Shown here: positions 21,828 to 44,220 of the stretch, piece by piece
How the letters are laid out: the number at the start of each line of letters is the position of its first letter
How positions within the stretch are numbered: the stretch's first letter is position 1
NCBI RefSeq assembly: GCF_002072105.2
Contig: NZ_MTBC01000002.1
Location: 372,001-436,000, forward strand
DNA length: 64,000 nt
From: Croceivirga radicis
GTDB taxonomy: Bacteria; Bacteroidota; Bacteroidia; Flavobacteriales; Flavobacteriaceae
Direction of reading: 5' to 3'
The notes under the pieces: generated by a model
Database searches by the model: none
Seen by the model: only the letters and a program-made list of their open reading frames with translations
Told to the model about the DNA's origin: nothing
Translations under genes and position numbers: made by a program

Positions 21828-21901
21828 GGCCCAGTAGTTCAACTGGATAGAATATCAGATTTCGGCTCTGAGGGTTGGGGGTTCGAATCCTCCCTGGGTC
21901 A
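21828..21901 (+). tRNA. tRNA-Arg, anticodon TCG
   Basis: 74 bases folding as a full cloverleaf. Acceptor stem 21828-21834 with 21894-21900 (one G-U pair), anticodon stem 21855-21859 with 21867-21871, loop 21860-21866 with anticodon TCG at 21862-21864, five-base variable loop, T stem 21877-21881 with 21889-21893 and loop TTCGAAT. The discriminator is A; CCA is not encoded. It would read CGN arginine codons. Confidence 0.95.
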
Positions 21902-27824: not shown

Positions 27825-27954
27825 ACGCTAAAGCTACTATAAGTATGCGTATTAAAAGCGCTTAACTTAAACAAAGTTTTAGTAGTTTTATGCCAAACAG
27901 ATATGCGTTAGATGACGGATATTGAATTGTTACCAAACAGTTGAAAACCGAATA

Positions 27955-28539
27955 ATGAAACAATTTTTGATTTTAATATTAATACTTTCAATTCTATCAA
28001 GTTGCGACCGAAGAAAGTCAGACAAAATCCAACCGAAACTTGAACAAAAAACTGAATTAGAAACGGTAAAATCAAAAAAAGAAATCAATACAATTAATAA
28101 TTATTGGGCTTTAATTCTCGACACTATTTCAAGTAAAAAAGAATTTAAAATTTTGGACATAAAACATACCCTTGAAATAAAAACTTATAGTTTAAACGAT
28201 AGTTCAATTGTTAGGAATTTATCTCAAAACGGAGAACAAGTCTATATAGACCATTCTCACAAAATGGTAACCGATTTTAAACTTTTGACAGACTCAATTG
28301 TTGACAAAAAACAAATCGACAGAACTGACTTTGAAAAAAAATTGATTCCTGAATTTTACGCCGAATGCAATCTTTTCTCAACTGAAATTGACAGTATTGT
28401 TGGAAACAACATTTATCTGAGTTCCGACTTAGCTGTTCCTGATACGGATAATCAATGGAGAGTTTGGTATTCGATTAAAATAAATAATAACCAACTTGGC
28501 AAATTGGAAATAAAAGAAACTGATTATGTCGGATTATAA
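27955..28539 (+). CDS. Cassette 1: small lipoprotein of unknown function
   Basis: 194 residues from the ATG at 27955, chosen because it begins a lipoprotein signal (MKQFLILILILSILSSC, Cys about 17); an in-frame start at 27922 lies outside the cassette boundary. The rest is hydrophilic, rich in Lys, Asp, Ser and Ile, with no motif I recognise. It starts 26 bases after the boundary G^TT at 27929 and stops seven bases before the right-hand cassette repeat. Codon use is more A-rich than in flanking chromosomal genes, suggesting acquisition. Confidence 0.75.
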   Translation: MKQFLILILILSILSSCDRRKSDKIQPKLEQKTELETVKSKKEINTINNYWALILDTISSKKEFKILDIKHTLEIKTYSLNDSSIVRNLSQNGEQVYIDHSHKMVTDFKLLTDSIVDKKQIDRTDFEKKLIPEFYAECNLFSTEIDSIVGNNIYLSSDLAVPDTDNQWRVWYSIKINNNQLGKLEIKETDYVGL

Positions 28540-28545
28540 AAAACC

Positions 28546-28739
28546 GTTTGGTAACAACGCCTATAAGTAATGCGGGCTCATGTTTTAGACGAAAGGGATT
28601 TTCTTACAGCATCGCTCTCAATTTTGTAAATTGGTAACAAACAAAAAACAAATTTAAAAATGGTTCGCTTGGGTTCGTGTTAGACTGAAAACTAGAGCTT
28701 TTCTTTCCCGCACTACTCATAGCCTAACCGTTAGGTGTA
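28546..28739 (+). repeat. attC-like site 1 (between cassettes 1 and 2)
   Basis: Left arm begins GTTTGGTAAC (28546-28555) and continues as GCCTATAAGTAATGCGGG; right arm CCCGCACTACTCATAGCC pairs with it at about 14 of 18 positions. Crossover point G28730^TT within GTTAGGT, which fits GTTRRRY. The span of about 190 bases is longer than classical attC sites. The same left and right arm motifs recur in site 2. Confidence 0.65.
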
Positions 28740-28756
28740 ATTTGAAAAAAAAATTA

Positions 28757-29470
28757 ATGGAAAAAGAAAAAACCACAAACTGGCTTCCTACAGATAAAAG
28801 ATTTGTGGCTTTCATCGATATATTGGGATTTAAAGATTTAGTCATGAGAAGTAGCCACTCCCATATTTATGACCTTCTTTCTGAGATATCAAAATTAAGA
28901 AGTCTGATAGATAATTGGAAAGACAAAAATGATGGAAGATATTCTAATGCTGAAATGTATACAGTTAGTTTTTCAGATTCAATAGTTGTTTTTTCAAAAA
29001 GTGATACCGTTGAAGATTTTGACCTTTTTGCTTTTGGAATAAAATGGTTATTTTCAGGGGCTATAGATAAGTCTATTCCCCTAAAAGGAGCACTAGCCTA
29101 TGGAGAAATCAGTCTGAATAAGTCAAGCCAAATATACTTCGGGCAACCAATTATTGATGCTTATTTACTAGAGGAAGAGGTAAATTATTTCGGAATAGTT
29201 GCTCACAATTCCATAGAGAAATTTTTTAAAGATAATGAAGAAAAAAGTGTGAGTAAACAGATTTTGTCTGAGTTTAAAACACCACTTAAATGCGGTACAA
29301 TTTCACACTTAAACCTAATATGGTTTAAAGAGATTGATAATCCGCCTACTGATTTCAACACTTTGAGAAATAAAATAAAAAATTTTCAATATAATATTTC
29401 TGGTAGTCCGAGAAGGTATATTGATAATACTATTAATGTAATTGACCAAGTTGAGAATGAACTGAAATAA
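28757..29470 (+). CDS. Cassette 2: nucleotide-cyclase-like protein
   Basis: 237 residues from the ATG at 28757 (a TTG at 28742 would add five). The fold signals resemble class III nucleotide cyclases: RFVAFIDILGFKDLV with D21, then SFSDSIVVFS with D74, then a GALAYGEI strand. In cyclases two such aspartates bind metal. Related sequences are usually called hypothetical, and pyrimidine cyclases of Pycsar defence share this general signature. Activity is not shown: purine- or pyrimidine-selecting residues cannot be assigned by eye, and no known effector gene is adjacent. It begins 27 bases after the cassette boundary. Confidence 0.65.
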   Translation: MEKEKTTNWLPTDKRFVAFIDILGFKDLVMRSSHSHIYDLLSEISKLRSLIDNWKDKNDGRYSNAEMYTVSFSDSIVVFSKSDTVEDFDLFAFGIKWLFSGAIDKSIPLKGALAYGEISLNKSSQIYFGQPIIDAYLLEEEVNYFGIVAHNSIEKFFKDNEEKSVSKQILSEFKTPLKCGTISHLNLIWFKEIDNPPTDFNTLRNKIKNFQYNISGSPRRYIDNTINVIDQVENELK

Positions 29471-29473
29471 AAC

Positions 29474-29676
29474 TACACCCAACACAACCTATACGTAATG
29501 CGGCCTTTAGGGTTAAATGGAAAGGTCTATGTATATTTATGAGGTCGCTAAATCTTATGGATTTAGCTTTGGACAAGAAAAAATAAAACTAAACAATAAG
29601 CTTTAGCTTCGTGTGCAGACGGAAACAAAAAGTTTCCTTGCCAGCCCTACTTGCCATAGCTTAGACGTTGTGTGTA
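29474..29676 (+). repeat. attC-like site 2 (between cassettes 2 and 3)
   Basis: Starts TACACCCAAC (29474-29483), the partner of the left end of cassette 2, then ACAACCTATACGTAATGCGG, closely similar to site 1. The right arm ends CTACTTGCCATAGCTTAGAC before crossover G29667^TT. GTGTAATTTGAAAAA follows the crossover here and at site 1, so cassettes 2 and 3 share their left ends. Confidence 0.65.
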
Positions 29677-29691
29677 ATTTGAAAAAAACCA

Positions 29692-30234
29692 ATGCAGAGA
29701 ACAGAAACCATAGATAAAAATCAACTTTTTGAACTGATTGAATACATTCTTTCGGACTCAAAAACTGAATTCTATGAATCATACTCTGAAATGGAAAAAG
29801 AAATAATTCTGATAAACAATCTGTCTGATTTCCGAGATTATTTTGATCTCGGAATCGCTAACGGTAAAGTTCATTTCGGATTTGGAATCTATAATCCTGA
29901 ATCAAAAGGCAAGATTTTTACTTCGAAGATAAAGCTCAACCCAAAATATTGTAATGGAAAAACCTTCCGCTATCGAATCGATGGTTGGGCAATAATTTTT
30001 GTTCAGCTTAACTTGAAAAACGGAGAAAACCAAATTGAATGTAATGTATCTGTAAACTCAAAAAAACGAGCTGAAAATTGGAAAAGTACAAATCCCGAAT
30101 TCGGAAATCCAGAATTATGGGAATGGAAATGTGTAGAAAGAAGAGCCAGAAAAATAATTAATCGATTAAAAAAACTACAGACAACAAAACCTCAAAGCAA
30201 TAGCGTCCTGCGGGACGCTACTGCTCATAGCTAA
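29692..30234 (+). CDS. Cassette 3: protein of unknown function
   Basis: 180 residues, no signal peptide or membrane helix. N-terminal helical region (QLFELIEYILSDSKTEF), a central part likely to form beta strands (GKVHFGFGIYNPESKGKIFT; YRIDGWAIIFVQLNL), and a basic C-terminal helix (VERRARKIINRLKKLQ). I recognise no family. The last 17 or so codons (TTKPQSNSVLRDATAHS) are encoded by the recombination site itself, as happens in integron cassettes. Starts 25 bases after the boundary at 29667. Confidence 0.7.
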   Translation: MQRTETIDKNQLFELIEYILSDSKTEFYESYSEMEKEIILINNLSDFRDYFDLGIANGKVHFGFGIYNPESKGKIFTSKIKLNPKYCNGKTFRYRIDGWAIIFVQLNLKNGENQIECNVSVNSKKRAENWKSTNPEFGNPELWEWKCVERRARKIINRLKKLQTTKPQSNSVLRDATAHS

Positions 30235-30247
30235 ACAGTTGCCACTC
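30176..30247 (+). repeat. attC-like site 3 (between cassettes 3 and 4), compact form
   Basis: TACAGACAAC (30176-30185) matches the left end of cassette 3. A tight hairpin follows: AGCAATAGCGTCC pairs with GGACGCTACTGCT at 12 of 13 positions around a TGCG loop. Then CATAGCTAAACA and crossover G30238^TT. At about 66 bases it has classical attC size. The hairpin is not a terminator: there is no T-run and an ORF reads through it. Confidence 0.7.
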
Positions 30248-30277
30248 ATTGGACTCACGCTACCCTTAAAAAGTAAA

Positions 30278-30529
30278 ATGAATAAAATAAAACTGACTTT
30301 AATTTTTATACTGTTATTTTCTTTAGATTGTTTTAGCCAACAAACCGGAAATAATGGAATAACACAAATTGCTGTAAAAAACGGTATTGGAATTGGAAGC
30401 GCAATTGCAATTGTAGTTTCTTGGGACAGAAATAAATCAATTCTTTATGCAGTATTACACGGAAGTTTGGGCTGGCTTTATGTTATCTATTTCGTAATAG
30501 TACGTGAAAGTGAAGAAAAGAATAAATAA
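30278..30529 (+). CDS. Cassette 4: small membrane or exported protein
   Basis: 83 residues from the ATG at 30278; an in-frame upstream start at 30239 would be inside the recombination site. N-terminal signal-like helix ending near CFSQQ (about 18-22), then one or two hydrophobic segments (IGIGSAIAIVVSW; AVLHGSLGWLYVIYFVIV). Similar short proteins with NKSILYA-LHG-GWLYVIYF are common in Flavobacteriia, with no known role. No right-hand cassette site matching its left end (expected GAGTGGCAAC) follows, so this unit looks truncated. Confidence 0.7.
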   Translation: MNKIKLTLIFILLFSLDCFSQQTGNNGITQIAVKNGIGIGSAIAIVVSWDRNKSILYAVLHGSLGWLYVIYFVIVRESEEKNK

Positions 30530-30542
30530 TCAAAAACAAAAT

Positions 30543-30664
30543 TGAATACGGAATTATCAAATGAATCGATTTCAAAAATAACTTTTGAACTAGACTTAGA
30601 AAATGGACTGGTTGAACGGGGAGATGGAGGTTATCAGTTTCTTGAAAAAGTAATTTTGAAATAA
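30543..30664 (+). pseudogene. Possible decayed coding remnant right of the array
   Basis: Two overlapping open stretches look protein-like: from 30543 (NTELSNESISKITFELDLE) and, one base out of phase, a tail NGLVERGDGGYQFLEKVILK ending in TAA at 30662-30664. Joining them needs a frameshift near 30600, and no proper start is seen. I do not recognise the protein. Probably debris of an older insertion. Confidence 0.3.
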
Positions 30665-30832
30665 CTTTGCTTTTATTGGCTATAATTCGTTTTAGCGCAT
30701 TTCCTATGCGGAAATCATTACTTTTAAGCGAAGGATTGATTGTAGCTGCAATTTTCACTTCATGAAATTCCACAACGTAATTATGGCCCAACCTTGGCCA
30801 TTTCTTTTGAAAAAATCTAAAATAAGAATAAC
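30665..30832. other. Non-coding stretch, nothing recognised
   Basis: No ORF with coding character, no match to the cassette arms except a short ACAACGTAATTATGG that vaguely recalls the left arm, and a 6-bp hairpin (ATTTCC/GGAAAT). Likely decayed sequence between the array and the chromosomal genes. Confidence 0.3.
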
Positions 30833-43888: not shown

Positions 43889-44158
43889 TTATTTTCTGAT
43901 ACCTAAATCCTTAATTAAGGCACGGTACTTATTAATATCTTTCTTTTTAAGATAATCTAAAAGACTACGTCTTTTACCTACCAATTTTACCAAAGAACGC
44001 TCTGTGTTGAAATCTTTATGATTTCTTTTTAAGTGCTGTGTTAAATGGTTAATTCTGTAAGTGAACAACGCAATTTGTCCTTCAGTAGAACCTGTGTTTC
44101 CTTCAGAACCACCGTGTTTTTTGAAAATTTCGGCCTTAGCCTCTTTGCTTAAATACAT
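43889..44158 (-). CDS. rpsO: 30S ribosomal protein S15
   Basis: 89 residues, normal size. GSTEGQIALFTYRINHLTQHLKRNHKDF and LVKLVGKRRSLLDYLKKKD are the S15 core that binds the central domain of 16S rRNA. It follows a promoter and a leader with a small hairpin; S15 proteins often regulate their own mRNA. Confidence 0.97.
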   Translation of the reverse strand: MYLSKEAKAEIFKKHGGSEGNTGSTEGQIALFTYRINHLTQHLKRNHKDFNTERSLVKLVGKRRSLLDYLKKKDINKYRALIKDLGIRK

Positions 44159-44189
44159 TCCAATATTGTTTTAAATGATTTTTATGTAC

Positions 44190-44220
44190 CTGACTGGTTT
44201 TCAATCAGGCGGCAAAGATA
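44190..44220 (-). promoter_or_regulatory. rpsO promoter element and leader hairpin
   Basis: TATCTTTG on the minus strand (44220-44213), an exact match, followed by a hairpin in the early transcript: CCTGATT (44209-44203) facing AGTCAGG (44195-44189) around a purine-rich loop, one G-U or mismatch. The hairpin lies about 30 bases upstream of the start codon and could be an S15 binding site. Confidence 0.5.

Follow-up and report, generated by a model that had tools for sequence, protein, structure and literature searches.

The probable cassette array of the window

The stretch of DNA analysed here comprises 64,000 nucleotides (nt) of the flavobacterium Croceivirga radicis (assembly GCF_002072105.2, contig NZ_MTBC01000002.1, positions 372,001 to 436,000; referred to as the window, with position 1 as its first letter). 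Its plus strand carries an attI-like site followed by four small units, each of which contains an open reading frame (ORF), and attC-like hairpin sites between them. In all likelihood, these are gene cassettes in a satellite array of an integron-like system for site-specific recombination, in which the tyrosine recombinase P0001, encoded on another contig of the same genome, would act in trans via attC-like sites read as the bottom strand.

The attI-like site (27901 to 27928; ATATGCGTTAGATGACGGATATTGAATT preceding G^TT) contains ATGACGGATATnnAATTGTT at 27912-27931, and upstream of it lies a promoter-like block, TTTTAGTAGTTTTATGCC (27877 to 27894), a candidate cassette promoter recognized by eye through its likeness to other copies. 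Cassette 1 extends from G^TT to the following G^TT (27929 to 28729) and encodes a protein of 194 amino acids with a lipoprotein-like start (27955 to 28539), for which family scans returned nothing above the cut-off. The ORF is followed by attC-like site 1 (28546 to 28739; AAC-GTT length 174 nt), which obtained a score of 59 with the arm scanner described below and a covariance model match on the minus strand (28553-28732, E-value 3.7e-8). Cassette 2 (28730 to 29666) contains an ORF of 237 amino acids without a match in family scans (28757 to 29470) and attC-like site 2 (29474 to 29676; AAC-GTT length 183 nt; arm scanner score 42), which the covariance model matched weakly (E-value 0.11). The ORF of cassette 3 (29667 to 30237), encoding 180 amino acids and also without a match in family scans (29692 to 30234), extends into its own attC-like site 3, a member of a short class (30176 to 30247; AAC-GTT length 52 nt; arm scanner score 38; hairpin z-score -3.8), which was missed by the covariance model built on the 117-nt class. 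The three ORFs start 26, 27 and 25 nt past the boundary, and the right arms carry CATAGC..GTT, as a previous sequence-only reading of the window had noticed. Its description of four genes split by hairpin sites holds, with three sites. The fourth gene (ORF 30278-30529, starting 40 nt past the boundary) has no sound site to its right. The end of unit 4 (30238 to 30784) is uncertain; a weak, degenerate site-like match was found on its right side (30682-30784; covariance model, 16.4 bits, E-value 0.32), and the unit is possibly an eroded cassette. No recombinase gene adjoins the window array. Two further features of the window, an S15-Flavobacteria ribosomal leader (44156-44220, minus strand) and a tRNA gene (21828-21901, plus strand), are ordinary.

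Cognate ends of the units

The first three units start with GTTACCAAAC (27929), GTTAGGTGTA (28730) and GTTGTGTGTA (29667), and their ends read GTTTGGTAAC (28546), TACACCCAAC (29474) and TACAGACAAC (30176). Each start is reciprocal to its own end at 10/10, 9/10 and 9/10 bases, respectively, exactly as the sequence-only reading had claimed; of the 2,472 GTT-10-mers on both strands of the window, 5-8 reach at least 9/10 against any single end. Units 2 and 3 are hardly separable by their ends, and additional units were therefore sought outside the window. In this wider test, sites were located through their inner arms, and the seven outer bases, which had not been used in training, served as the test. 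Cognate ends at 6-7 of these 7 bases were found in 153/166 units of C. radicis and related genomes, namely 13/13 in C. radicis itself, 2/4 in the congener G150 and 138/149 at other loci, the last set including six loci that had trained the arm scanner. Non-cognate end pairs matched on average at 2.3-2.6 of 7 bases, and 6 or 7 matches were reached by 764/22,052 such pairs of the other-loci set. The two arms within one site are likewise not reciprocal, with a mean match of 2.6-3.3. The claim of reciprocal ends thus becomes strong once more units are counted.

The recombinase P0001 and the attI-like sites

A fuller locus of the same kind is found on contig C15 of the C. radicis genome, where P0001, a tyrosine recombinase of 375 amino acids, is encoded (L023:9102-10229). 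Just past the stop codon of the recombinase gene lies an attI-like site (AAATATCCGTCATATGACGGATATCCAATT^GTT), after which come at least nine linked units whose sites resemble those of the window. A search for P0001 homologues in this genome at E 1e-60 returned one match, the P0001 gene itself. The integron integrase profile had no match above its cut-off in the genome, the best one, on C15, being split into two pieces. P0001 scores 213.6 against TIGR02249, below the cut-off of 265, and 233.2 bits against the XerA equivalog NF040815, above the curated cut-off of 220; by sequence and structure, XerA is its nearest relative. The nearest named relatives of the recombinase, Maribacter among them, are members of Flavobacteriaceae, and this family, to which the S15-Flavobacteria leader of the window also points, is the one meant below by 'the family'. 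The region in which integron integrases (IntI) carry their specific patch spans 51 residues in P0001 (272-322) and 51-56 in full-length Bacteroidota relatives; four IntI rows have 93-94 residues there and a fifth has 74. The structure alignment of P0001 to PDB 2a3v breaks at this region. At its N-terminus, P0001 has around 105 residues beyond XerA, which form an unplaced domain that may resemble structure-reading DNA domains, namely the XPB damage-recognition domain and SMARCAL1 HARP. Residues R235, K260, K263, H324, R327, H350 and Y359, which we take to be the catalytic residues, are invariant in 25/25 recombinases.

ATGACGGATATnnAATTGTT occurs in six exact copies in the C. radicis genome, one of them just after the recombinase gene on C15 and one in the window, and the left boundary of the window array has the right half of the C15 attI-like site in common. 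At no more than one mismatch, the attI pattern was detected 8 times in C. radicis and 9 times in G150, but in none of nine other genomes of the genus and in none of the reversed controls; the two genomes with the pattern have recombinases that are 78-100% identical, and one of the nine without it has a 56% relative. Ten C. radicis copies with up to two mismatches were inspected. One (C14) has no cassette. Seven of the remaining nine are followed by a first unit with reciprocal ends (9/10 or 10/10) and, at its close, a left arm of the site class; another has a 9/10 end but no arm, and the last has neither. In G150, a first unit of the kind seen at the seven follows six of the nine copies and is absent from three. 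Eight of the C. radicis copies besides that of C15, the window copy included, lack an adjoining recombinase of the P0001 kind. By eye, a promoter-like block (TTTAGTAGTTTTATRC, TTTATCTTTAKGC or variants) is seen 5' of 15/16 recombinase-less copies of both genomes, the exception being C16 of C. radicis, and at neither of the two recombinase-adjacent copies. Block and attI-like copy might together form a candidate promoter-attI station, in which the block would act as the cassette promoter, a role suggested by the Bacteroidota -7 motif. When 32 attI-like copies were searched for even palindromes, with the 95% level of random stretches as threshold, a palindrome was found in 19, always centred 16-17 nt 5' of GTT and with letters that vary by species, and none in 13, including the copies of the window, Rufibacter, Algibacter, Flavobacterium enshiense and Winogradskyella.

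Fold and strand of the attC-like sites

The arm scanner was trained on sites from six relatives, leaving out the seven bases outside the core. On 575 kb, it detected 202 sites versus 2 in one shuffle at a threshold of 23, and 202 versus 4 at a threshold of 20, which was used subsequently. In C. radicis, the core-to-core length of the hairpins ranges from 46 to 183 nt; across all scanned loci, the lengths cluster mostly near 54, 117 and 182 nt, in steps of around 64 nt. In a set of 57 dissimilar sites of the 117-nt class, chosen from 166, 14 of the 15 inner stem pairs vary on both sides. One wobble is nearly invariant: columns 24/127 form G.U in 51/52 cells and never G.C or A.U, and a second pair is G.U in 39/57 sites. 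A constant unpaired (extrahelical) column was not seen in the site alignment A4.

The sites are strand-asymmetric because a G.T pair of the bottom strand corresponds to an A.C mismatch of the top strand; on the top strand, 234 sites contain 696 A.C mismatches versus 139 G.T. With one site per left arm (n=146), the bottom strand is the more stable one in 132 cases and the top strand in 13. In eight loci, the bottom strand is favoured in 97/101 sites versus 29/101 stretches from cassette bodies, and in classical Pseudoalteromonas attC sites in 4/4. This bias tells against selection acting on hairpins of the transcript and favours a bottom strand that folds as it does in integrons.

Arrays and cassettes in other genomes

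In six of 14 stretches from relatives, chains of 16, 10, 15, 8, 14 and 13 units begin 51-90 nt past the recombinase gene on the same strand; the remaining stretches are short contigs or have shorter chains. The longest chain in three dinucleotide shuffles of 22 sequences comprised 4 units. Chains of 4-14 units downstream of a recombinase were found at 7 of 80 named loci, those of Flavobacteriaceae bacterium S0862, Seonamhaeicola aphaedonensis, Rufibacter sp. (Hymenobacteraceae), Flavobacterium enshiense, Algibacter onchidii, a Bacteroidetes metagenome-assembled genome and Winogradskyella ursingii, whose chain of 4 units lies within the shuffle maximum, yet coincides with 4 arm-scanner sites. 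As a positive control, the chain detector recovered the classical five-unit array of Pseudoalteromonas luteoviolacea, which adjoins an IntI-clade recombinase. The earlier interpretation of the window units as integron-type cassettes remains the best one, with a recombinase gene heading arrays like that of the window both at another locus of C. radicis and in related genomes. Plasmids (L297 and L298) carry arrays 3' of a recombinase gene, too, as seen in Rufibacter tibetensis and Chryseobacterium sp. SNU WT5 (4 model matches, E-values 3.5e-9 to 8.5e-7), and the recombinase of the latter is annotated as 'site-specific tyrosine recombinase/integron integrase'. Several draft contigs (L091, L097, L101, L284, L286, L287 and L291) stop 0.2-2.1 kb from the recombinase gene, perhaps because assembly fails at the repeated sites.

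Bacteroidota genomes were scanned with a covariance model of the site, an approach that the sequence-only reading had proposed. Model R1 matched 134/149 genomes of the family (E 0.01, with at most 23 sites scored per genome), 85/198 of the phylum (E 1e-4) and 0/20 of other phyla (E 0.01), and it misses the Pseudoalteromonas genome that has a classical array. At E 1e-60, the recombinase was detected in 83/149 family genomes, 27 of which, C. radicis included, encode relatives with the N-terminal part (52-100% identity); at least 8 sites were matched in 26 of these 27.

The contents of the arrays differ between close relatives. The loci C1 of C. radicis and C46a of G150 are 95.65% identical over 2,897 bp until the attI-like site, past which no match was found at E 1e-8 across 2.6 kb. 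C19 of C. radicis and C70 of G150 are 94.3% identical until the site and have one cassette in common (92%), which is the first in one array and lies deeper in the other; the recombinase loci of both genomes are 73% identical until the attI-like site. Flanks of attI-like sites (L082/L276 and L086/L279) are 94-96% identical between two species that reach 66-73% identity in the three other genes compared, as if these flanks may have moved along as well. The cassette L023:14624 has a counterpart of 99.6% identity over 795 bp at a different G150 locus, and Algoriphagus ornithinivorans (Cyclobacteriaceae) shares a cassette with the family genome G056 at 97.3% identity over 630 bp; altogether, 7 cross-genome pairs among 197 cassettes passed the filter, and some arrays contain exact duplicates at non-adjacent positions. 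Conserved gene order without shuffling, which the sequence-only reading had named as speaking against cassettes, is thus not what was found: contents change past another attI-like site, as the comparison with the congener shows, and the same cassettes turn up elsewhere and in a changed order. At the osmC locus itself, an empty site, which it had also suggested, was looked for and not found.

The longest ORF of at least 60 amino acids lies on the array strand in 188/197 cassettes and on the opposite strand in 5, while 4 have none; the median start is 30 nt past GTT. One cassette of around 440 bp, in which no gene is convincing, has two copies in the C15 array and one each on C19 and in G150 (L023:12484-13365, L086 minus 2843-2400 and L279 minus 1028), with 91-94% identity among the compared pairs. 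Among the 90 cassette proteins scanned out of 182 distinct ones (set A5), some are defence-like, with likeness to reverse-transcriptase-associated SLATT, PifA, AbiLi, QatA and PDC-S20 (20 PADLOC models with 1-2 members each), and others resemble an erythromycin-esterase-like protein, DMP19 or VIT1.

Relation to known systems

With integrons, as represented by class 1 and the Vibrio superintegrons, the system shares a recombinase gene, an attI site, head-to-tail cassettes, the GTT core, a bottom-strand attC hairpin and an attC R''/R' complementarity of around 10 nt (compare PMC2727003). It differs from them in that the recombinase is without the IntI-specific insert and is extended by an N-terminal domain, several recombinase-less attI copies exist per genome, 19 of the 32 attI-like copies tested carry a palindrome with letters that vary by species, and a fixed G.T wobble is present while no constant extrahelical column was seen. 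In the available parts of PMC9668308 and PMC2426708, the IntI-specific patch is the criterion for integron integrases, and Bacteroidota are among the integron-bearing phyla according to the corresponding part of PMC8618304. Cassette arrays are not described for patch-less members of the 'integron-like' tyrosine recombinase subgroup in the available text of Smyshlyaev et al. 2021 (PMC8138268). Like clusters of attC sites lacking integron integrases (CALINs), the window array has no adjoining recombinase; unlike them, it comes with an attI-like site, and a matching recombinase is encoded elsewhere in the genome. XerA acts at dif-type sites, and P0001 differs from it (NF040815, PDB 5hxy and 4a8e) by the additional N-terminal residues and the linkage to cassette arrays.

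A further relative is TnpF, encoded next to tet(X3) on Acinetobacter plasmids, which is 53% identical to P0001 over residues 143-375 and whose gene is also followed by a palindrome, 8 nt and GTT; however, TnpF is shorter (221 amino acids). A TnpF-like recombinase gene is located around 190 nt 5' of tet(X3), with the attI geometry in between (L295:6052-6907, NZ_CP041297.1; also L296). An attC-like site 3' of tet(X3) was searched for on the Acinetobacter plasmids and not found. The ancestry of tet(X) has been placed in Flavobacteriaceae in a study whose main text does not contain the word 'integron' (PMC7722449).

Proposed mechanism and alternative explanations

We infer that P0001 would be the enzyme behind the arrays: it would recombine an attI-like site, as double strand, with the attC-like sites of circular single-gene cassettes, and it would excise cassettes through attC x attC exchange. 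The attC-like site would be read as a folded bottom strand, with a hairpin that is maintained by compensatory changes and marked by G.T wobbles found on the bottom strand only, and the exchange point would fall inside G^TT. Several promoter-plus-attI copies, that at 27877-27928 among them, would be filled in trans. Directly visible in the sequences are the architecture, the cognate ends, the covariation and strand bias of the sites, the linkage of recombinase gene, attI-like site and array, the dispersal of attI-like copies and the turnover of cassettes.

A number of observations weigh against the features seen in the window or against this mechanism. Within the window, the pairing of ends is not fully specific (match matrix 10,3,4 / 4,9,7 / 3,9,9) because the starts of units 2 and 3 are similar; the window attI-like copy lacks a clear palindrome in the even-palindrome test, unlike the C15 copy; and the top-strand folds of the whole sites 1 and 2 (z-scores -1.0 and -1.8) are not clearly above shuffles, with site 3 at -3.8. 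The share of paired cells in the covariation set (93.9% versus 69.1% when shuffled and 30-48%, at most 48.1%, when slid) is partly selected, since the scoring of the arm scanner contains a pairing term. Sites were matched in each of the 83 family genomes with a recombinase at E 1e-60, and the 15 genomes without site matches all lack one at this threshold (Fisher p 1.8e-6), but this association is loose because the set at that threshold includes generic XerA-like proteins without the N-terminal domain. One close-relative genome, G103, has a single site match, and in 51/134 site-positive family genomes the recombinase was not detected at E 1e-60, so that some arrays may be dead or served by other enzymes. 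A cassette common to L281 (minus 10520) and L023:14624 differs in the last ~10 bases before GTT, which is not predicted by a cut strictly at G^TT and might point to homologous exchange or to another point of exchange. The sequence-only reading had proposed to look for a tyrosine recombinase with the integron-specific patch; a recombinase linked to the arrays was indeed found, but P0001 lacks the insert of around 42 residues that defines IntI, and a patch-based search would therefore have missed the system. Finally, excision, integration and catalysis are steps that we infer from sequence. The system is one that would work like an integron, yet lacks the patch by which IntI integrons are defined.

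The window array might instead be a relic CALIN of an ordinary integron that lost its IntI, with the patch-less recombinase as a bystander. The lack of an adjoining recombinase would fit, as would the sites without recombinase at E 1e-60 in 51/149 genomes; however, no protein of the C. radicis genome passes the IntI cut-off, arrays start directly after the patch-less recombinase in several genera, the attI-like pattern and a closely related recombinase co-occur within the genus, and the site model misses the classical array of the Pseudoalteromonas genome, which makes a relic unlikely. We also assign a low probability to Xer/pdif-like modules, in which double-stranded recombination would take place at short dif-like sites and hairpins would be incidental: the proximity of P0001 to XerA in sequence and structure speaks for them, but the sites found, hairpins of 46-183 nt between cores in C. 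radicis with covariation, strong strand asymmetry and cognate ends of ~10 nt, do not.

It is highly improbable that the sites are RNA hairpins, i.e. terminators or riboregulators between ordinary neighbouring genes. They do sit between same-strand genes, but the transcript strand folds less well than the opposite strand, an Rfam scan gave no match within the window array, and neither the gene turnover at fixed attI-like sites nor the cognate ends would be explained. Single-gene transposons or units resembling miniature inverted-repeat transposable elements, inserting side by side, could account for small units that recur within and between genomes; yet the units stand head to tail, their starts match their own far end rather than a family-wide terminal repeat, and no transposase gene was seen among the ORFs of the window array (ORF listing and family scans), so that this explanation has next to no probability.

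Implications

Beyond the integron-like system itself, it is tempting, though rather doubtful, to see in these arrays a second lineage of integrons that would be near-universal in Flavobacteriaceae and would extend across Bacteroidota. In this lineage, the N-terminal domain and the G.T marks would replace the patch and extrahelical-base recognition, one recombinase would serve many dispersed promoter-attI stations in trans, and the system would have carried tet(X) out of Flavobacteriaceae. Published integron searches, as described in the available texts, require the IntI patch and would therefore pass over the system, despite sites in 134/149 genomes of the family. The definition of the integron integrase would thereby be reopened, as the patch is held to be essential, yet patch-less relatives head intact-looking arrays. 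The fixed G.T wobble, which seems to take the part of the constant extrahelical bases, would offer a natural experiment on strand choice, and the dispersed attI-like copies would offer one on trans-acting, multi-station integrons. The system may also matter medically, given the attI-like site of the same geometry ahead of tet(X3) on Acinetobacter plasmids, and the arrays hold a large reservoir of unstudied cassette genes, some of them defence-like.

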